Source of the DNA: Diabrotica undecimpunctata
Taxonomy: Eukaryota; Arthropoda; Insecta; Coleoptera; Chrysomelidae
Assembly (NCBI RefSeq): GCF_040954645.1
Contig: NC_092809.1
Location: 66,092,141 to 66,156,140 of the forward strand
Direction: 5' to 3'
Length of the DNA: 64,000 nucleotides
Position numbers and translations under genes: made by a program. Position 1 is the first letter of the stretch. Every line of letters begins with the position of its first letter. Below the pieces are notes generated by a model, which was not told the origin of the DNA, made no database searches, and worked only from the letters and a program-made list of their open reading frames with translations. Below, piece by piece: positions 22,611 through 60,100 of the stretch.

Positions 22611-24709
22611 GCCCATCCCTGTCTGTTGGCCAACGTCGCTTAAGTCTTCTGATAACTCGATGTTGAGGTATTGCGGAAATTAATGGATTGGAGTGTGTGT
22701 TCACTTTTTGAATGTATTGTAATTTCTTTTGCTGGTATACTTCTTTCACTGTTGAGATATTTAGATCCTCATAGATTCTTTGGTTGGTTACGTACCAGGG
22801 TGCATCAACAATTGCTCTTAAGATTTTTGATTGGCATCTTTCCATAATAGCAATATTAGATTTACTACTACAGCCCCATAGCTCTATGCCATATGTCCAT
22901 ATTGGTTTGATAACTGTTTTATAAATTAGAATTTTATTATTTATTGACAGCTTGGAGTTTTTTCTAATTAACCAATTGATTTCTTTTTGTCTTAGTTGTA
23001 TTTGTTTTCTTTTTTTGGTGATGTGTTCTTTCCAACACAGGGTTTGGTCCAGGTGTAGCCCTAGGTATTTGGTTGTTTTAGTCCTGGGTATTTCCTCATT
23101 GTTGATATATATATTGGTGGTGGTGTTTCTCGTCGTAAAGTAAAAGTTACCTGGGTTGACTTGTTTTCATTTATTTTTATTTTCCATTGTTTTGGCCAGT
23201 TTTCAAGCTCATACAAATAGTCTTGGAGTTGTTGTGTAGCTATGTTAATGTGTTTGTGACTTGTAAGTCCTACTGTGTCATCTGCAAATGTGCCAATTGT
23301 TACGTTATGTAATGTTGGTAAATCAGACGTATATAATATATATAATAAAGGTCCCAGGACGCTTCCCTGTGGAATTCCCGCCTTAACGGGATGCGTTTTG
23401 GATATTTCTCCATTTACTTTTGTTCTAAACTGTCGGTTTTCCAAGTATAATGTAAGTATTCGAAAGAATGGTGGTAATATTTGTTTAATTTTATAAAGAA
23501 GTCCTTTATGCCAAACCTTATCAAAAGCTTGACGTACATCTAGTGATACCATTGGGCAATATTCCTTTTCTTCTAATGCGGAATTGATTTTATGGGTTAT
23601 TCGGTGGCATTGCTGGATAGTTGAGTGTTCTCGTCGAAATCCAAACTGATAATTTGGTATCCAATCTGCGCCTGTAAAGTCTGGATCTATTCTTTTTATT
23701 AAAAGTTTTTCTAGTAATTTGTAGATTGTTGATAATAGACTGATAGGTCGATAGGATAAGACTTCACTTGGATCCTTTCCTGGTTTTGGGAATAATAGTA
23801 TTTCTGCCATTTTTAGATTGTTAGGCCAATAATTACATCTTAATATTGCGTTAAATATATATGTAAGGATTACTATACCCTTTTTTGGTAATTCTTTTAG
23901 CATTTTCGGTGTTATTAGGTCAATTCCTGGTGACTTTTTGATATTCAGTCTTAAGATTTCTTCTTTAAGTTCTTTGGGTGTTGTTAATTTTATTGAATTT
24001 ACTGATGGTTGTTCTGAGTTTAAATAATTAATAATTTCTTGATCTTCTTCATTGTTGTGTGGTTGGAATACTGTTGCTAAATGTTCAGCAAATAATTCTG
24101 ATTTTTCTTTATCGCTTCTTGCCCATTGGTTCTGTGTGTCTGTAGTTTTTCTTACTGGTGGGGATATTGCTTGAGGTTTTAAGGATGATTTGATTGGTTT
24201 CCATATTGAATGGTCGTATCTATTAAGTTGTGTTACATATTTTTTGACTGACTCTTCTCTTGCAATTTTTAGTTGTGTTTTTAATTTATTGGTTAAGCGA
24301 TTGTAAAACGTTTTATCCGCTGGGTTCCGACTTTGTTGCCATTTGGCTCTTGCTCTTGTTTTTTCAGCAATGAGCTTTTTAATTTCTAATGTAATATTTA
24401 TTCTTTTCTCGATTTTATTTTTATCTGCATCGTTCGGTGTCGCTTTTTTTGCAGCGTTTTGCAATAAAGTTATAAGATTGTTTGTAGCTGCTTCTATTTC
24501 TGAAGGGCTTTTTAGTCTTACATTTAGTTTCATGTTTTCATCCAGTATTTTTCGGTAAAGGTTCCAATCTGTTCTAGGTCCATGCAGTTTTGGAGTAGGT
24601 TGTTTGTTAATAACGCATGTGCTAATTGTTGCAATAATTGGTGAATGATCTGAAGATAGATCATAACTTGGAACTATGTCCATAAAGGTGTTAGATATTC
24701 CTTTTACGA

Positions 24710-25320
24710 TGGCATCGGAAATAGCAAAAATTTTTATGCCATATTTAGTCGGTTTACTAGGAATGTACTGCCTGAAACTGCAATTTCCTCGAAAAGCTTC
24801 TAGCTTCTCGTCAATGGTAACATACAAAGAATGAGAACAGCATTTTTTAATGTTGCTGTTAAATTTTTCTTGCAATGTTCGTATTGGAGCCAGCTTATCT
24901 ACTTGTATTCTTTCATTTATTGTGTGCATGTTATTAAATCGCAGATAATGCAAAAGAAATTGAAATCCAGGCTTACTTATTACAAGCCGAAAAGTTTCAA
25001 TGCCCGTACCATCTGTTCTCCAAAGATCCCCTAAATTCATGTGGTTTGCTTTTCTAATACCAGCAAGATAAGGAAGATCAATTAGGGCTTTGATTTCGGC
25101 AATATCGGTAGGTTTCGCATCTCTTTGTCTGTTGTTATCATTTGTAATACTCTCAATTTCTATATTTGTACAGTCAACAACTAGATTTAGCATTTCTTCG
25201 TCAAAAATGAAATTCCAGATGTCAATACGAGTTTTAAAAAATTCTTTTATAGCTAGCAACCGTACAAATATATTAATACTGCGTATTCTTACATCCTTCG
25301 GTGGTCAATATTTTTTCCAC
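24710..25320 (-). pseudogene. piggyBac transposase, N-terminal piece
   Basis: From 25320 downwards the frame reads PPKDVRIRSINIF (before M at 25259, with one stop), then the N-domain and the first catalytic block SLYVTIDEKLEAFRGNCSFR and YIPSKPTKYGIKIFAISDA. At that point the jockey LINE interrupts it. Residue order and spacing fit piggyBac transposases. Confidence 0.85.
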
Positions 25321-32545: not shown

Positions 32546-34205
32546 ATGCTGAAGAACAAGTAAAAACATACACCTACCTTGGTACAAAAGTCAATGAAAA
32601 TAGGGACCATTCCCCAGAAATGAAATGTAGGATAGAAAAAGCACGATCTGCATTTCAAAAAAGGGCTAAGCTATTTAAATGTCATGATTTATCAGTACTC
32701 ATAAAAATCAGGTTACTACGATGTTATATCATTCTTAAACTGTTGTAGAGAGTCGAGTCGTGGACTCTCACAGAAGCTTCTTCTTCTTCTTCTCGTAGCA
32801 CTACAACCCGTGGTGGGTTTTGGCTGACTGCACAATTTGCTTCTATCTTGACCGGTCGTCCATAATAGTTGGGTCAGTGGGCAGTCCCATTGTTCTTAGA
32901 TCTGACCATATATTGTCTCTTCATCGCATTCGTGGACGTCCTTAGGGTCTTCTTCCTGTGGGGGCTTCCTCCCATATTAATTTGGCAAGGCGGTTATTAG
33001 GGAGTCTATGGACATGTTCAGCCCATCTAAGACGTTGGGATTTAATCTCTTGGACTATATCGCTCGCTCTATACATCTGCTTGACCTCAGCAGTTGTTCT
33101 CATTCGGTATTGGTTGCTATTAATGTCGTGATAAGTCTCAAAGATTCTTCTGAGGATTTTCCTCTCAAAACATCAAGAAGTTTTCTTTCGGTTTCTTTGG
33201 TCAGGGTCCACTTCTTACACCTATACATGAGCACCGGTCTTATCACCGTTTTATATATTCTAATCTTTGATGTTCGTGTTGGGTTTTTAGATTTAATAGT
33301 ATTGTGGAGGCTGTACATACATTTGTTTGCTGCCTGAATTCTTCCTTTAATCTCTTCCGCGATATTGTTATCTGCAGTGATTGTTGCTCCAAGATATTTA
33401 AAACTCTCCACTCTTTCAAAGTTATATGGGTCTATTGTCACATTTTGCCCTATTCTATCTCGTCCTTTTTGTCTGTTGATGCACATGTATTTGGTTTTCT
33501 CTTCGTTTACCCTTAAACCAGTTTTCTTTGCCTCTACCTCCAATTTATTAAAAGTCTCCTTCACATTGGTGACAGTGTTTTCCACAATGTCAATGTCATC
33601 TGCGTATGCTAGTAGTAATTTTGGTCCATTTACTGTCAGTAATTCTGTTTTAAGGTGTGCTACTCTTGCTACTTTCTCCAGGATGATATTAAAGAGGAGA
33701 GGTGACAGCGCATCTCCTTGTTTCAGGCCATTGCTTATTTCGAAAGATTCTGAGAGTTTGTTACCTATTAGTACTCTGGATCTACAGCTATTCACACATA
33801 ATTTCTTCTCACACAAGCTACGTGTAGAAAAATTGAGCCTTTCGAAATGTGGTTTTATCGTCAAACCCTGAAAATATCCTATACCGAGTACGTTACTAAC
33901 TAGGACGTTTTATTAAGAATACAAAAAGGAAAAGAATTGTTTACCACAATAAAAACAGCCAAAATCGAATACCTCGGTCACATCATAAGAAACAGGGAAA
34001 GATATAGGTTGCTGCAATTAATTTTACAAGGAAAAGTAGAACGAAAATGAAGACCAGGAAGGCGCAGGATTTCCTGGCTGAAAAATCAACGTACGTGATT
34101 CAACACAACAACCACAAATCTTTTGCTGCTTGAGCAGCAGTTTGTAAAATACAGATTGCCATGATGGTCGCCGACATCCAAAACGAATAAGCACTACAAG
34201 AAGAA
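32546..34205 (+). mobile_element. RTE-like LINE 3' part (middle layer)
   Basis: The left part, 32546-32775, reads KTYTYLGTKVNENRDHSPEM and CRIEKARSAFQKRAKLF up to ESWTLTEA. The right part, 33876-34205, resumes near ISYTEYV and continues TIKTAKIEYLGHIIRNRERY, then RLLQLILQGKVE, ending in a GAAGAAGAA tail. About 17 codons expected at the join are absent, so the inner insertion was accompanied by a small target deletion. Confidence 0.7.
32776..33875 (-). mobile_element. LINE reverse transcriptase fragment (inner layer)
   Basis: A minus-strand frame at 33864-33100 encodes 254 residues with SNGLKQGDALSPLLFNIILE, the catalytic LLAYADDIDIVE and TGLRVNEEKTKYMCINRQ, followed by RIYKTVIRPVLMYRCKKWTL. 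The (GAA)n tail (ttcttcttcttctt on the plus strand) is at 32776-32795. It is 5'-truncated just before the RT palm. Confidence 0.82.
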
Positions 34206-48127: not shown

Positions 48128-50425
48128 CCAAAGATTCAAGCCCAGGACCAGACGGTATCCCCTTAGCATTTCTACTACATCTACCAGACAATGGGAAAAA
48201 TTTATTACTAGACCTTTATAGTTTTATCTATAATAACCAGGTTTTCCCATCAGCTTGGTCCAAAGCAATAATACTACCACTTCTTAAACCTGAGAAATGA
48301 GATTTAGACAAAATAGATCCACTATAGATAACCTAATAGACTTAGAGTCAGGAATACATGAGGCATTTGTTAATAAGCAAGATTGTATCGCAAATTTTTT
48401 TGATATTAATAAAGCTTGTGATACTGTTTGGCGATACACTATCATATCAAAATTGTATAATTGGAATATCAGGGGCAATATGATAAAATTTATTTCCATT
48501 TTCTTCAATCTCTCAGCTTCATAGTTCGATGAGATAATGTTGAACTTAAAAGTTCAACAGTACAAATGAAGTACCTCAAGGATCAGTTATAAGCTCAATC
48601 CTTTTTCTAATAGCCATAGACGACATACTTTAACAATGCTCACCGATTTGTTAAAGGAAGGTTATACGCTGATGACTTAGCTTTATTTGCCAAAGGAAAA
48701 AACTATACATATATTCAAAAACATTTACAACAGACAATCAATCTGTTAGAATTATGGTTTAGGACTACAATTCGGATTACAATTTTTACTGACAAAAACT
48801 AAAATGTATTTTATTCACACGAAAACATAACACTCTAACTCCACATCTGAAGCTATATAATCAAACCCCACAAATAATATCAGATTTTTAGGTATGGTTT
48901 TCGACCAAAATTTCTCCTGAAAAAAACATACAAAAGAACTTAAAAAATCATGCGAAGCAGTATTAAATTTTATGAACACTATTTCCATCAAAAACTGGGA
49001 AGCAGATTAAAATACATTATTACATGTATATAAATCTCTAGTTAGATCCAAACTCAGACTATGGTGCGATAGTGTATTTATCAAGCAAAGTATCAGTATT
49101 AAAAACCTTAGAAATTGTTCAAAACACAGCTCTACGAACAGCTACAGTTGCGTTTCGAATGACACCAGTTGAAAGTTTACAATGCGTAACAGGAACAGGA
49201 GAACCACCCCTAGGTTTACGATGCAAATACCTTTCTCTCCCATATGCTTTTAAAATAGCTGGTAATAAAGAACCCACTACTTATACCAATACGTTCACAT
49301 ATCGATTTCAAGACACTTTCTCTACAACAAGACTAGATCCACCATTTTACGAAAGAGTTTACGAAAAGGAGAAAAAACCTTCACGACCTACATCTTCAAT
49401 TTCCTGAAATTCTCCCAACAAATTTTCTAACTTCTCCACCTTGGTTAATACCAATACCAATTCCCAATATTAATACTAACATTAGTATATATAAAAAACG
49501 TAAGACTATAGCAGACCTGATTAAACAATCATTCTTAATAGAAATAAAAACTTATAAAAATTACTGTAAGATATACACTGACGCATTCAAATCTTTAGAC
49601 GGTGTTGGTGCAGCCATCCTCACACCCAATACATCCTTAAAATTTAAATTCAATCCCATTACTTCGTCATACACTGCAGAGTTGTTTGCAATATTACAAG
49701 CACTTATCCACATAACAGAGTCGAAACAGTCCCCGTCTCTCATAATAACCGATTCACTAAGCTCACTTCACACTATCAAAGGTTTATATACTAATAATAC
49801 AATTGCCTCACATATCAAATCAGAAATAAAGATTCTAAATAATAATAAGATCACTGTTGACTTTATGTTTGTTCCATCACATTCAGGTATACAAGGAAAT
49901 GAAGAAGGAGATGAAATAGCCCGCTTAGCATCCTTCAGCCAAGACTCCATTCTTATTAATGAGGTTTCTTCAGATGTCTTGTATGACAAGTCAGAAATAA
50001 AATATAAAGTGTTAAGGGCGTGGCAAAATAAGTGTAGTGCATCACAAAATAAACTCAAGGAAATCAAACAATTGGTGAAACCGTGGCTTCAATCCACAGC
50101 GAATAGACACGACCAAGTGAGAATAATACGTTTCTGCGACTAGAACATAGTAACTTTACACATAAAGACCTCTTTACGCGAACTGTGCCGCCAATGTGCG
50201 AAAATTGTCAAGTAACACTCTCTGTGAGGCATATACTAACTCAGTGTAAAACATATGAAGCAGCAAGAAAGAAGCACACTATCCCAAATAATATAAGGGA
50301 AGCCTTAGGAAGAAACATGAACATTAAAAACACAATAAGTTATCTTAAAGACTCAGGACTGTATCAATTATTGTAATTTTTTCTAACTTTACCTGTATTA
50401 TATTTTTTAAGTCGCTAATAACCCT
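48128..50425 (+). mobile_element. I-like LINE copy, 5'-truncated and internally deleted
   Basis: It begins inside the RT (KDSSPGPDGIPLAFLLHLPD), loses about 100 bases between LLKPEK and FRQNRSTIDN near 48297, and runs to the 3' end of ORF2 (KDSGLYQLL, stop at 50374). The same family is nearly complete at 57079-62400 on the other strand. Here the RT palm keeps FFDINKACDTVW and ends in many stops between 48530 and 49070. Confidence 0.88.
49550..50376 (+). pseudogene. I-like LINE RNase H and zinc-ribbon end
   Basis: Blocks KIYTDAFKSLDGVGAAILTP, SYTAELFAILQALIHI, SLIITDSLSSLHTI and MFVPSHSGIQGNEEGDEIAR carry the four acidic RNase H residues. After a frameshift at about 50140 the C-terminal CENCQVTLSVRHILTQC (C-x2-C-x8-H-x4-C) follows. 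It would degrade the RNA strand of the cDNA hybrid; the frameshift disables it. Confidence 0.85.
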
Positions 50426-54249: not shown

Positions 54250-56550
54250 GTCATTAACTGATCTTGTTACATGACCTGTCCAGTTTCACTTTAGCGTTGT
54301 TATCCTTTCAACAACGTCTGCTATTCCTGATCTTTTGCGTATAGTAGCATTGGGTATTCTATCACGTAGAGAAATCCCTAACATTATTCTCTTCATTGCC
54401 CTTTCCGCAACTTGTAGTTTACTCACTGTTGTTCTTGTGAGTTTTAGGGTTTCTGCACCATAGGTCATCACTGGCAAAATACACTGATTAAACACTTTTA
54501 TTTTTAGACACTTTGGAATCTTTGACCTAAAAGTATCCTTCATCTTTCCAAATGCAGCCCAAGCGAGGTTTATTCTTTTTTTCAGACCGATTGTTTGGTT
54601 GTCTCGACTTATTCTGATCTCATGGTCAAAGTATTTATAGGAGTCAACTGGCTCAATATCTTTGTCTTCTTTATAGTTTATTCGTCTTCCGGGTTTGGAC
54701 CGTGTCATTTGTGAGTGACCCAAAAGTGGGTTCATCTCGACGTTTCGCTACAATTGTATGTAGCTTCTTCAGGAGAACAAAAAAGAAAAAGAGACAAAAG
54801 ACAGGAAGATGGGTAGTTAGCAACGGTAACTCAGTTACTCAACGCAACCAGAGGCGAATACTAACTACCAAGATGGGCATTTGGTCACAGTAACTCAACT
54901 ACTCAACGCAGCCAGAGGTGAAAACCAAATGCCAGGACAGGGATTCACGTCCAACAGCTCAGAACACTAACGCGTCGAGAGGCAGGGCCCTGCCTCTCGA
55001 CGCGTTAGTGTTCTGAGCTGTTGGACGTGAATCCCTGTCCTGGCATTTGGTTTTCACCTCTGGCTGCGTTGAGTAGTTGAGTTACTGTGACCAAATGCCC
55101 ATCTTGGTAGTTAGTATTCGCCTCTGGTTGCGTTGAGTAACTGAGTTACCGTTGCTAACTACCCATCTTCCTGTCTTTTGTCTCTTTTTCTTTTTTGTTC
55201 TCCTGAAGAAGCTACATACAATTGTAGCGAAACGTCGAGATGAACCCACTTTTGGGTCACTCACAAATGACACGGTCCAAACCCGGAAGACGAATAAACT
55301 ATAATTCTGACTCTGGCCGTGGAAGCCTACGATTTCATCTTTGTCTTCTACTGAGATGTTTTTGTTATGGACTAAATTTGTCATAAATTGTGTTTTTGAA
55401 AAATTTATTTTAAGACCAACTCTTTTTGTGATAGTATGGTGTTCTTGGAGCATTATCGGTGTCTGATTAAAGCTGTCTGCAATAAGAACGATATCATCTG
55501 CAAATTTAAGGTTATTTAAAAATGTTCCATCTACATTGATGCCCTTTTCGTTCCAATCTATTGTTTTACAAGCGTATTCAAGCAAAGTTGTAAATAATTT
55601 AGGAGACATGTTGTCTCCTTGCCGAACGCCCTTTTCAATACGAAAGGTCCCAGTATCTTCATTAAGTCTTACGTAGGCTGTAGCATGCTGATAGATGTAT
55701 CTGATGAGGGATATGTATCGGTGATCTATTCTACGTTGTCTTAGAGCTTGGAGCATTTCACTTTGATTGACCGTATCAAATGCTTTTTCAAAGTCGACAA
55801 AGACAAGTATTAAGGGTCTATTATATTCAATGGCTTTTTCAATCATCGACTTAATGGTTTGCAAATGATCATTTGTTCTGTATCCAATTCTAAATCCTGC
55901 TTGCTCACAAGGTTGATAGAAGTCTAGTTTTGATGTCAACCTATTAGTTATTACCTTCATAAACAACTCTACTTTTGTGCATGACTACTATAACAGCTTT
56001 ATTCCACTGAGATGGTGTAACCCTAAGTTATATAATTGTGTGAATGCTTTTAATACTGTCTTTCCTCCTGCTTTAATAAAGATTTGGTCATGACCAACTG
56101 CTTTATTGTTTTTCATCCGATTTAATGACTTTGAGACTTCTCCGATTGTTATATCTGGGGTATCCTCTGAACCCACTTTCTGGACTTTTTTCAACTTGGG
56201 GCTGTCTTTCTTACCCCTTTCTCTATATATTTCTGTGTAAAATGCTTTAACTACCTTAATTGTCTTATCTTTATCTGTTTACTTTTTTCCATTTCGATCT
56301 GCGAGCGTAACAGTATTCTTCTTACCTAGAGCTTGACATCTCTTCAGCACCTTTAAACTTTTATTTTCCTCGAAAACCGTTGTAATCTTTTTTGTATTAT
56401 ATTGTCGTACGTCCTTTCTCACTGCTTTATTAATATCTTTATTAAGTTGTTGTAGTACGCGTGCATTCGTGTAGTTTTTGTTCTTAAGTTCTCTTCGTGT
56501 CTCCATGAGTCTTCTTGTCTCTTGACTGAATGGAGTCTTCTGATCCCTCT
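54250..56550 (-). pseudogene. RTE-like reverse transcriptase (inverted part), broken
   Basis: From 56550: TPFSQETRRLMETRRELKNK, then VSKSLNRMKNNKAVGHDQIF, CEQAGFRIGYRTNDHLQTI, the catalytic LILVFVDFEKAFDTVN and NNLKFADDIVLIADSFNQ, ending with the thumb (KTQFMTNLVHNKNISVEDKD). A palindromic insertion then interrupts it at 54671-55336. The continuation 54657-54286 reads IEPVDSYKYFDHEIRISRDN, then YGAETLKLTRTTVSKLQVAE and RAMKRIMLGISLRDRI. Stops near 56280 and 55985 disable it. Confidence 0.88.
54671..55336. mobile_element. Palindromic Penelope-like insertion, 666 bp
   Basis: Flanked by the 13-bp duplication atctttgtcttct (54658-54670 and 55337-55349). The first 634 bases form a perfect palindrome, each arm 317 bp, centred on GGGCCC at 54985-54990 with no loop. 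A single-copy tail of 32 bases follows (55305-55336). Each arm carries CTGAAGA, a 5-bp GCTAC/GTAGC hairpin and GAAAC (right arm 55203-55234), the hammerhead-type core of Penelope-like pseudo-LTRs. Variable-length duplications and inverted ends fit that class. No RT is encoded, so the class assignment is inference. Confidence 0.7.
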
Positions 56551-57078: not shown

Positions 57079-57157
57079 TTTTTTTTTATTTATTTACGCT
57101 GTAACCACCAGGGTTATTAGCGACCTAAATATATAATACAGCTAAAGTTAGAAAAAA

Positions 57158-60100
57158 TTACAATAATTGATACAGTCCTGAGTCTTTAAGATAACTTATT
57201 GTGTTTTTAATGTTCATGTTTTTTCCTAGGGCTTCCTTTATATTATTTGGTATAGTGTGCTTCTTTCTTGCTGCTTCATATGTTTTGCACTGAGTTAGTA
57301 TATGCTTCACGGAGAGTGTTACTTGACAATTTTCACACATTGGCGGCACAGTTCGCGTAAAGAGGTGTTTATGTGTAAAGTTACTGTGTCCTAGTCGCAA
57401 ACGTGTTATTCTCACTTGGTCCTGTCTATTCGCTGTTGGTTGGAGCCACGGTTTCACTAATTGTTTGATTTCCCTGAGTTTATTTTGTGATGCACTCCAC
57501 TTATTTTGCCACGCACTTAACACTTTATGTTTTATTTCTGACTTAAAGTCATTTGAAGAAACCTCATTAATAAGAATGGAGTCCTGGCTGAAGGATGCTA
57601 AGCGTGCTAGTTCATCTGCTTCTTCATTTCCTTGTATACCCGAATGTGATGGAACAAACATGAAGTCAACATCTTATTATTATTTAAAATCTCTATTTCT
57701 GATTTGATATGTGAGGCAATTGGATTATTGGTATATGTATAAACGTTTGATAGTGTGAAGTGAGCTTAGTGAATCGGTTATTATGAGAGACGGGGACTGT
57801 TTCGACTCTTTTATGTGGATAAGTGCTTGTAATATTGCAAACAACTCCGCAGTATATAACGAAGTAATGGGCTTGAATTTAAATTTTAAGGATGTATTGG
57901 GTGTAAGGATTGCTGCACCAACACCGTCTGAAGATTTGGATGCGTCAGTGTATATCTTATAGTGATTTTTATAAGTTTCCATCTCTGTTAAGAATGATTG
58001 TTTGATCAGGTCTGTTATAGTCTCACGTTTTATATATATACTGAGGTTAGTATTAATCTTGGGAATTGGTATTAACCAAGGTGGAGAAGTTAGGAAATTT
58101 GTTGGGAGAATTTCAGGAAATTTAAGATGTAGGTCATGAAGGTTTCTTCTAACTCTTTTGTACTTTCGTAAAATGGTGGATCTAGTCTTGTTGTAGAGAA
58201 AGTGTCTTGAAATCGATCTGTGAACGTATTAGTATAAGTAGGGTGTTCTTTATTACTAGCTATTTTAGAAGCATATGAGAGAGAAAGGTATTTGCATCGT
58301 AAACTTAGTGGTGGTTCTCCTGTTAAGCATTGTAAATTTTCAACTGGTGTCATTCGAAACGCACCTGTAGCTATTCGTAGAGCTGTGTTGAACAGTTTCT
58401 AATGTTTTCAATACTGATATTTTACTCGATGAATAAACTATAGCACCATAGTCGAGTTTGGATCTAATTAAAGATTTATATACATGTAATAGTGTATTTT
58501 GATCTGCTCCCCAGTTTTTGCTGGAAATAGTTTTCATAAAATTTAGTCCTGCTTGGCATGATTTTTTAAGTTCTTCTGTATGCTTTTTCCAGGTGAGCTT
58601 TTGGTCGAAAACCATATCTAAAAATCTGATATTATTTGTGAAACTAAGGTTTTGGTTATATAGCTTTAGATGTGGAGGTAGATTGTTATTTTTTCGTGTA
58701 AATAAAATACATTTAGTTTTTGTTGGTGAAAATTGTAATCCGATAGTCCTAGACCATGATTCTAACTGATTAATTGTTTGTTGTAAATGTTTGTGACTAG
58801 ATGTAGAGTTTTTTCCTTTGGCGAATAAAACTAAGTCATCAGCGTATAATCTTCCTTTAACAATCGGTGAGCATTGTTGAAGTATGTCGTTTATGGCTAT
58901 TAGAAAAAGGGTTGAGCTTATAACTGATCCTTGTGGTACTCCGTTCTTTTGAACTTTTTTATCTGAGTTAACGTTGTCTGATCGAACTATGAAGCTGCGA
59001 GAATGAAGAAAAGTGGAAATAAATTTTAACATATTGCCTCTGATATTCCAATTATGCAATTTTGATATGATATTGTATCGCCAGACAGTATCATAAGCTT
59101 TATTAATATAAAAAAAAACTGCAATACAATCTTGCTTATTTGCAAATGCTTCATGTATTCCTGACTCTAAGTCTATTAGGTTATCTATGGTGGATCTATT
59201 TTGCCTAAATCCGCTTTGTTGTGGAATAAGGAGTTTTTGTTGTTCTAAATACCATCTCAGCCTTTTGTTTACCATTTTCTCTAACACTTTACATATAATA
59301 TTGGTTAAAGATATTGGTCTATATGACTCAGGTGATGTCCGGGATTTCTCAGGTTTAAGAAGTGGTAGTATTATTGGTTCGGATCAAGTTGATGGGAAAA
59401 CCTGGTTACTCCAGATAAAATTATAAAGGTCTAGTAATAAATTTTTTCCATTGTCTGGTAGATGTAGTAGAAATGCTAAGGGGATACCGTCTGGTCCTGG
59501 GCTTGAATCTTTGGAAGAGTTTAAGGCTTCGGTAAGTTCTATGAGGGAAAAAGGAACGTTAAGGTTGTGAATCTCATGTCTGTCTAATACCAATACGTTT
59601 TTTTTCACGTTGTTTTTATGTATTTTAAAATTATCAGTGTAATTTTTGTCATTGGAATTTAATTCGTATTGGTCTGCTAACATATCCACGATTTCTTTTC
59701 TATCACTAATTATTTTGTTATTTTTTGCTAGAAAAGGAATCTTATATGGTTGACTTTTGCCAGAGATTTTCCTTAAGTTTCTCCAAACTGTACTTGTGTT
59801 TGAAGAGGTATTTAGAGATGAGATGAATTTTCTCCAGGATTCTTTTCTATTCTTTTTTAGAATGTATCTTGCCTCAGCTCTTCGTTTTTTGTAATCCGTT
59901 ATGTTTTCGTCTGTTTTATTATGCTTTAGTTTATTGAAAGATTTCTTATACGCTTTTGTAGCTTGGCTGCATTCAGATATCCACCACGGAAGAGGTTTAT
60001 GTTTTTTTAAAATTTTTGTTTTGCTTATATACGTCTCTGCGGCTGCTGTGATGGTTTGTAAAAATGTACTTAAAATCTTGTCAATGTCATTTGATGATGT

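Follow-up and report, generated by a model that had tools for sequence, protein, structure and literature searches.

Results

Two head-to-head pLTR copies interrupt an RTE-like open reading frame

The window analyzed here is a stretch of 64,000 nucleotides from Diabrotica undecimpunctata (assembly GCF_040954645.1, contig NC_092809.1, positions 66,092,141 to 66,156,140 of the forward strand). It contains an insertion at 54671-55336, a span that covers the inserted DNA and excludes the second copy of the target-site duplication. Most of the insertion is a perfect palindrome of 634 bp, which is far beyond chance. The left arm (54671-54987, minus strand) and the right arm (54988-55304, plus strand) are complementary at 317 of 317 positions with 0 nt between them. 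A scan of the window for inverted repeats of at least 60 nt listed no other spacer-free pair. Two diverged 64-nt direct repeats are located within the left arm (54806-54933) and are mirrored in the right arm.

The insertion starts directly at the left copy of a 13-bp duplication (ATCTTTGTCTTCT, 54658-54670). It is closed by a single-copy tail of 32 nt (55305-55336, plus strand), which is followed by the right copy of the duplication (55337-55349). The duplication is exactly 13 bp, since the adjoining bases differ. The initial annotation had described the arms, the duplication and the tail in these terms, and all of them stand. It had also noted the GGGCCC at the center, which is present (54985-54990) but is not a sequence of a special kind: it forms where base 10 of the element abuts its complement.

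The target is a minus-strand ORF that we take to be RTE-like. Its 3' part is located at 54286-54670, and its 5' part, with a reverse transcriptase (RT) domain (PF00078), at 55337-55984. When the flanks are joined and one duplication is kept, a 339-aa open frame results. This frame can be aligned, join included, with a further RT ORF in the window (33100-33909), which has no insertion there. The target ORF reads through when the insertion is removed, indicating that the insertion is clean and secondary.

The sole Rfam output for the palindrome is a below-threshold mir-785 match at 54944-55031, which we rejected because it arises from the hairpin. Inverted copies of a non-LTR retrotransposon lie on either side of the palindrome region (48128-50407 and 57127-59514) and are 86-95% alike in the listed blocks. 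Elsewhere in the window, one open frame (23061-25304, minus strand) combines a transposase domain (PF13843, DDE_Tnp_1_7) with a reverse transcriptase (PF00078), and is probably a retrotransposon inserted in a transposase gene.

The arm belongs to a tandem Penelope-like element

We searched the arm in the 1.74-Gb assembly and scored 40 of 1,140 first-look candidates, so all counts given here are lower bounds. The arm is found at about 100% identity in many places, with a direct spacing of 2,843 bp. Both tandem units with this spacing and head-to-head arrays are present, an arrangement of the kind formed by the pseudo-LTRs (pLTRs) of Penelope-like elements (PLEs). One 2,843-bp unit (locus L010, 4561-7403) has an intact 832-aa ORF, which starts within the arm and opens with the 32 residues encoded in the window. 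Numbered along the unit, the arms of the window correspond to bases 10-326, the tail to 327-358, a hammerhead motif to 225-258 and the ATG to 262. The window copy holds just the first 32 ORF codons (MNPLLGHSQMTRSKPGRRINYNSDSGRGSLRF, 55240-55336, plus strand), open from the ATG into and through the tail. A TATA box starts about 30 bases upstream of unit base 1. Together with the junctions described below, it points to base 1 as the transcription start or cap site. Each arm in the window would then stop 9 nt before reaching the transcription start.

The 832-aa ORF contains an RVT_1 domain (E 2.7e-11). It is 47% identical to an Anolis PLE protein over 95% of its length, and 93% identical to a Diabrotica balteata protein over 84%. 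The first 78 residues of this Anolis protein are those of the PAc template printed in PMC11167929, with one mismatch. Telomerase RTs match the ORF weakly (E 0.02-0.3), and retron and group II intron RTs appear alongside them. A Pfam scan at E 1 found no GIY-YIG model in the ORF. A GVY...YIG motif is present by eye, and one listed homolog is named a predicted GIY-YIG endonuclease. Among 120 listed homologs, PF28514/PF26215 is found in nearly all, and PF01541 additionally in one. Contig scans found no PLE relatives in viral contigs.

The last 56 nt of the insertion align collinearly with the printed PAc template. This alignment is significant, its score being reached by 2 of 2,000 simple shuffles and by 4 of 4,923 window 56-mers, the best of which scored above the observed alignment. 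The 32-residue protein start compared with PAc alone is not significant, as 901 of 5,000 shuffles reach its score. The tail ends at a position equivalent to about +115 in the PAc ORF. The palindrome is real, and the genome itself confirms the earlier reading of it as a head-to-head dimer of a Penelope-like pLTR. It is an ordinary case of a known kind of structure.

The pLTR contains a putative hammerhead ribozyme

The core CTGANGA...GCGAAACGTC has two matches, one per arm, and none in shuffled sequence. The motif in the left arm (CTGAAGA...GCGAAACGTC, 54739-54772, minus strand) had 0 matches in 100 shuffles. In the right arm it is located at 55203-55236 (plus strand), with the predicted cut after 55236. 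It folds with stem II and stem I (z -3.1) and, by eye, has one extra A beside stem II. The Rfam hammerhead model did not match the motif, even at E 10. Judged from its sequence, the pLTR appears to hold a minimal type I hammerhead, which is a PLE trait.

Sister insertions have one tailed and one tail-less end

We fetched 27 stretches around matches of the arm search, 15 loci from a search for start-site junctions and 5 further loci. Nineteen of 25 arm-search loci are head-to-head. The remaining six (L011, L013, L014, L018, L022 and L030) have one visible arm or a structure that is not settled, and they are outside the head-to-head counts. Both ends are visible in 32 head-to-head insertions; L012, L020 and L021 were dropped because they are cut by the fetched end. 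In 31 of the 32, one end is at about base 326 (site 1) and the other carries a tail to about base 358-367. The exception is L048, whose right arm is 34 nt. The tailed end is on the left in some insertions and on the right in others.

Repeats of 12-16 nt are found at the ends of 30 of 31 insertions, with modal lengths of 12-13 nt. The search may run into the element ends, so true duplications can be shorter; L051 was excluded since the fetched end is too near. As a control, flanks of different loci share at least 10 nt in 3 of 930 mismatched pairs. Under stricter search conditions, 13 of 15 head-to-head loci had duplications of 9-14 nt, L017 had 7 nt and L028-29 had 3 nt.

The head-to-head form is not universal, as single-arm insertions were also found in the genome. 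L011 (3718-4043) consists of one tail-less pLTR arm whose base 1 abuts the flank, with a duplication of 8 bp. Single tailed arms ending at base 1 are located at L018 (3780-4138) and L030 (3801-4168); no target duplication was found when we looked for one at these two loci.

Head-to-head junctions are found at the inferred transcription start

A pattern for head-to-head junctions at the start site gave 29 matches at 28 places in the genome (C10:74187349 and 74187372 overlap) and 0 in the control. Twenty-one of the matches are in the window or fetched loci, and 8 are known from the pattern match alone. The junctions lose 0-9 nt per arm, 9 being the maximum that the pattern can show. They have either overlaps of 0-3 nt or between 2 and 12 additional nt, and the doubly counted match has 16. 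Over the stretch covered by the pattern, four junctions are perfect palindromes, and another two have a center of 1 nt. Three junctions have in common a 3-nt GGA/TCC overlap. No other match has the GGGCCC of the window, where each arm has lost 9 nt. The equal losses may reflect an RNA begun at base 10, or a trimmed hairpin tip.

Several details of these junctions were noted in passing. The unusual insert CAGGGA is the same at C1:117010451 and C25:274971; the latter may be a second copy of the former or an alternative haplotype contig. Two short head-to-head junctions, at C10:74183488 and 74187349-74187402, are about 4 kb apart, and one of them has a partial extra copy of the arm start. Where a complete left arm is followed by extra bases, the first extra base is C in 8 of 15 cases by eye, and on the right arm in about 4 of 15. 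The C on the left arm is not given by the genome upstream of base 1, and perhaps comes from copying of the RNA cap, although the signal is weak.

A second class of junctions is located at the predicted hammerhead cut

If hammerhead-cleaved RNA serves as a template, palindromes are expected to begin at base 259, the first base past the predicted cut. A pattern search at this position found 39 junctions, more than at the start site, and 0 in the control. Since the pattern is anchored at base 259, the sharpness of these junctions can be read on their 5' side only. Their spacers are 0 to 29 nt long. Among 76 non-empty junction sides, the base expected from a longer template comes first in 5, the next two bases match in 2 and the next three in 0. 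One site (C4:53053055) may run through, as judged by eye.

Twenty of the 39 sites, selected for spacers of at most 8 nt, were fetched. They are insertions of about 170 bp with arms from base 259; at L058 and L074 the alignment extends 1-2 bases past it. One tailed and one tail-less end are found in 18 of the 20, and end repeats of 12-14 nt in 16. One arm of L063 runs to at least base 420, and there is no clear repeat. L069 aligned with one arm, and the repeats of L072 and L075 are imperfect or shorter.

The exact position of these ends suggests that hammerhead-cleaved RNA is also a template in the living animal. Alternatively, RT could stop at the folded ribozyme. A stop caused by the structure would, however, be likely to lie before stem I, from around base 267 downward, rather than after it.

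Both arms of an insertion share a source haplotype

Comparison of the two arms indicated a common origin. Fifteen of 30 comparable pairs are identical over the roughly 310 nt compared, and the others differ by at most 4 bases. Twelve haplotypes are distinguished at unit bases 185-222. The same haplotype is present on both arms in 30 of 30 insertions, compared to a mean of 6.3 and a maximum of 15 in 20,000 shuffles. L032 and L048 have no haplotype on one side and are outside these pairs. Private changes occur on single arms, so the shared haplotype is not simply the result of conversion.

These data also bear on the proposal in the initial annotation that the palindrome is either very recent or maintained. 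They favor ordinary recency, with 0 differences in 317 positions (95% upper bound on arm divergence, 0.94%). Arms are not kept identical as a rule, since as many as 4 bases in about 310 nt distinguish the arms of other pairs. Identical arms are frequent, and therefore neither the palindrome nor its perfection needs maintenance.

Five insertions have unequal arms. The tail-less arm of L015, L019, L023, L032 and L025-27 goes beyond the 5' end of the tailed arm by 152 to 3,541 nt. In their present form, neither arm can be a copy of its partner, since both have sequence that is missing from the other. A later deletion at the palindrome center is another way in which long insertions could acquire unequal arms. 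Large center losses seem to be a minority among short palindromes: nine of the arm-search head-to-head loci have one or both arms ending within the pLTR, and the loss per arm is no more than 11 nt in seven of them and larger in L019 and L032.

Long arms have scattered ends and homogeneous units

Of 25 arms that continue past the start site, 24 have scattered end points (L042 is the exception; L013, which is cut, was left out). The two arms of an insertion are of the same kind. Among the 19 head-to-head loci, both arms end within 12 bases of the start site in 7, neither does in 12, and the mixed case is found in 0 (P 5e-6); the 12 include L019 and L032, in both of which one arm stops within the pLTR. 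Within an insertion, variants covered by at least three repeat copies are present in all copies in 35 cases, in one copy in 11 and in a subset in 0 of 46. These 46 variants are from five insertions, and many of the 35 are plain differences from the L010 reference. Over 1,141 nt, units differ at 0-2 positions within four insertions and at 3-13 between six. This pattern is what repeated copying of one monomer would leave.

Discussion

Transposition of PLEs is poorly understood, and the family to which this insertion belongs gives unusually direct evidence on how they insert. Template ends of three kinds are found in one genome: at the inferred cap site, at the predicted hammerhead cut and, in multi-unit arrays, at scattered sites.

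A model for the insertion

The insertion is most likely a dead-end PLE insertion: two head-to-head pLTR copies with no body, produced by priming from both target strands and joining of the products. The target would be cut on both strands, probably by the element's own endonuclease, leaving the 13-nt 3' overhangs that correspond to the duplication. Each free 3' end would then prime reverse transcription near the ORF start. One strand would prime at site 1 (base 326), which gives the tail-less end at the left duplication, and the other at site 2 (about base 358), which gives the tail between the two RT start sites. Both cDNAs would copy RNA from the same source to or near its 5' end, here base 10; the arm ends coincide at this base, and a shared RNA end would account for it. 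Two arms that both reach one RNA end would make a palindrome. In the last step the two cDNA ends would be joined, and the junctions of the sister insertions carry small losses, overlaps and short inserts. With initiation inside the element, ordinary mRNA should yield the pLTR only. The model offers a two-primer explanation for the long-known inverted pLTRs.

Biochemical work on PAc is consistent with this model. Passages of PMC11167929 report that both target strands are cut and extended in vitro, that the tail is the stretch between two RT start sites, and that the most common RT start is at 111-118, though they state that the start site does not differ between strands.

Self-priming has a small chance of being correct. 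A single cDNA, or an antisense RNA, would fold back at the RNA 5' end and copy itself, and repair would fix the hairpin. The frequent identity of the arms (15 of 30) is in keeping with this, as is the GGA/TCC overlap common to three junctions, which fold-back would give. Palindromes at head-to-head junctions in Adineta vaga were interpreted in this way, with antisense RNA proposed, in passages of PMC3846280. In solo palindromes, including the one in the window, the arms themselves cannot separate two cDNAs from one self-copied cDNA. We also rejected differing junction positions alone as proof of two cDNAs, since fold-back with a large loop could give them too. The argument for two cDNAs thus rests on the five insertions in which each arm holds sequence that the other lacks. 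A copied arm must be contained in the first, and these five violate this unless the center was later deleted. Under self-priming, the tail-less arm would also have to end at site 1 in 31 of the 32 cases. Together with the two-strand extension reported for PAc, the non-contained arms favor two-strand target priming over the self-priming proposed for Adineta. As the arms always share a haplotype, two cDNAs would need co-packaged or re-used RNA.

It is very doubtful that the arm is a metazoan retrozyme, a non-autonomous hammerhead repeat, in place of a PLE piece. The type I hammerhead motif and the size of about 300 nt resemble those given in passages of PMC7229834. However, the arm holds an ORF start and is part of a 2,843-bp coding unit found at many loci, and retrozymes are described as tandem repeats without ORFs in passages of PMC7229834 and PMC7761336.

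Long perfect palindromes are a classic form of assembly artefact, and the initial annotation had itself raised this possibility. An inverted chimera or a missed adapter could have doubled one pLTR. This is extremely improbable, as the flanks are not mirrored, the 13-bp duplication and the ORF of the empty site are exact, and the same architecture is present at many independent loci with different duplications. The initial annotation had also considered a DNA transposon end. Long inverted repeats do adjoin the duplication, but an origin from a DNA transposon or a foldback element bounded by such repeats can be practically discounted: 32 nt extend beyond the repeat at the right terminus, so that, unlike in DNA transposons, the termini are not inverted repeats, and the arm forms the 5' part of an RT-encoding element.

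A possible role of the hammerhead

The multi-unit arrays may have a different template. We tentatively propose that the hammerhead releases one-unit RNAs from tandem transcripts, that these RNAs become circles, and that two target-primed RTs travelling round a circle would produce head-to-head arrays of many units, with linear mRNA giving short palindromes. The circle is hypothetical, and the proposal draws on the variant pattern, the scattered ends and the pairing of the arms. Linear tandem RNA from a young, homogeneous array is a possible alternative template. For retrozymes, passages of PMC7761336 and PMC7229834 put forward circular templates and suggest that PLEs may act as helpers. If the circular template is correct, the hammerhead would be what makes the element transmissible, and linear mRNA, capped or hammerhead-cut, would give only short palindromes of the kind seen in the window. 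Any genome with a young PLE family offers a test of what the hammerhead does.

Inverted pLTRs, one-sided tails, target-site duplications and minimal hammerheads are already published for PLEs; passages of PMC3846280 describe the tail, the inverted pLTR and the duplication. The hammerhead-cut insertion footprint looks new. In searches of the open literature, which covered largely titles and passages, we found neither this footprint nor the explanation of one tailed end by two start sites.

Comparison with known systems

The proposed mechanism resembles twin priming of LINE-1, in which both target strands prime on the element RNA and inverted arms result. In LINE-1 the second priming event is an internal one, and each arm represents a different part of the element. 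By contrast, the PLE arms here start near the same place and mirror each other.

Metazoan non-LTR retrozymes also have a type I hammerhead, tandem units and a proposed circular RNA template, according to passages of PMC7229834 and PMC7761336. Unlike PLEs, they are described there as non-coding and non-autonomous, and as having no pLTR, tail or ORF.

Poseidon/PAc of Anolis carolinensis is similar in its ORF (47% identical), in a hammerhead core (GAAACGUC) near the ORF start, and in a tail between two internal RT start sites, as far as passages of PMC11167929 describe it. The tail end at about +115 here is within the published 111-118. Unlike PAc, the element in the window is an insect element.

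Penelope elements of Adineta vaga (Pen2a_Av and others) likewise have direct and inverted pLTRs with palindromes at the inverted junction, a tail (31 bp) on one inverted pLTR, target-site duplications of 8-10 bp, and an insertion into a non-LTR element, according to passages of PMC3846280. Compared to the elements in those passages, both arms in the window are solo pLTRs without a body, and the duplications of the family are longer (modal 12-13 nt, although the search may overrun the ends). The many copies in the D. undecimpunctata genome allow the one-tail rule and the junction positions to be counted.
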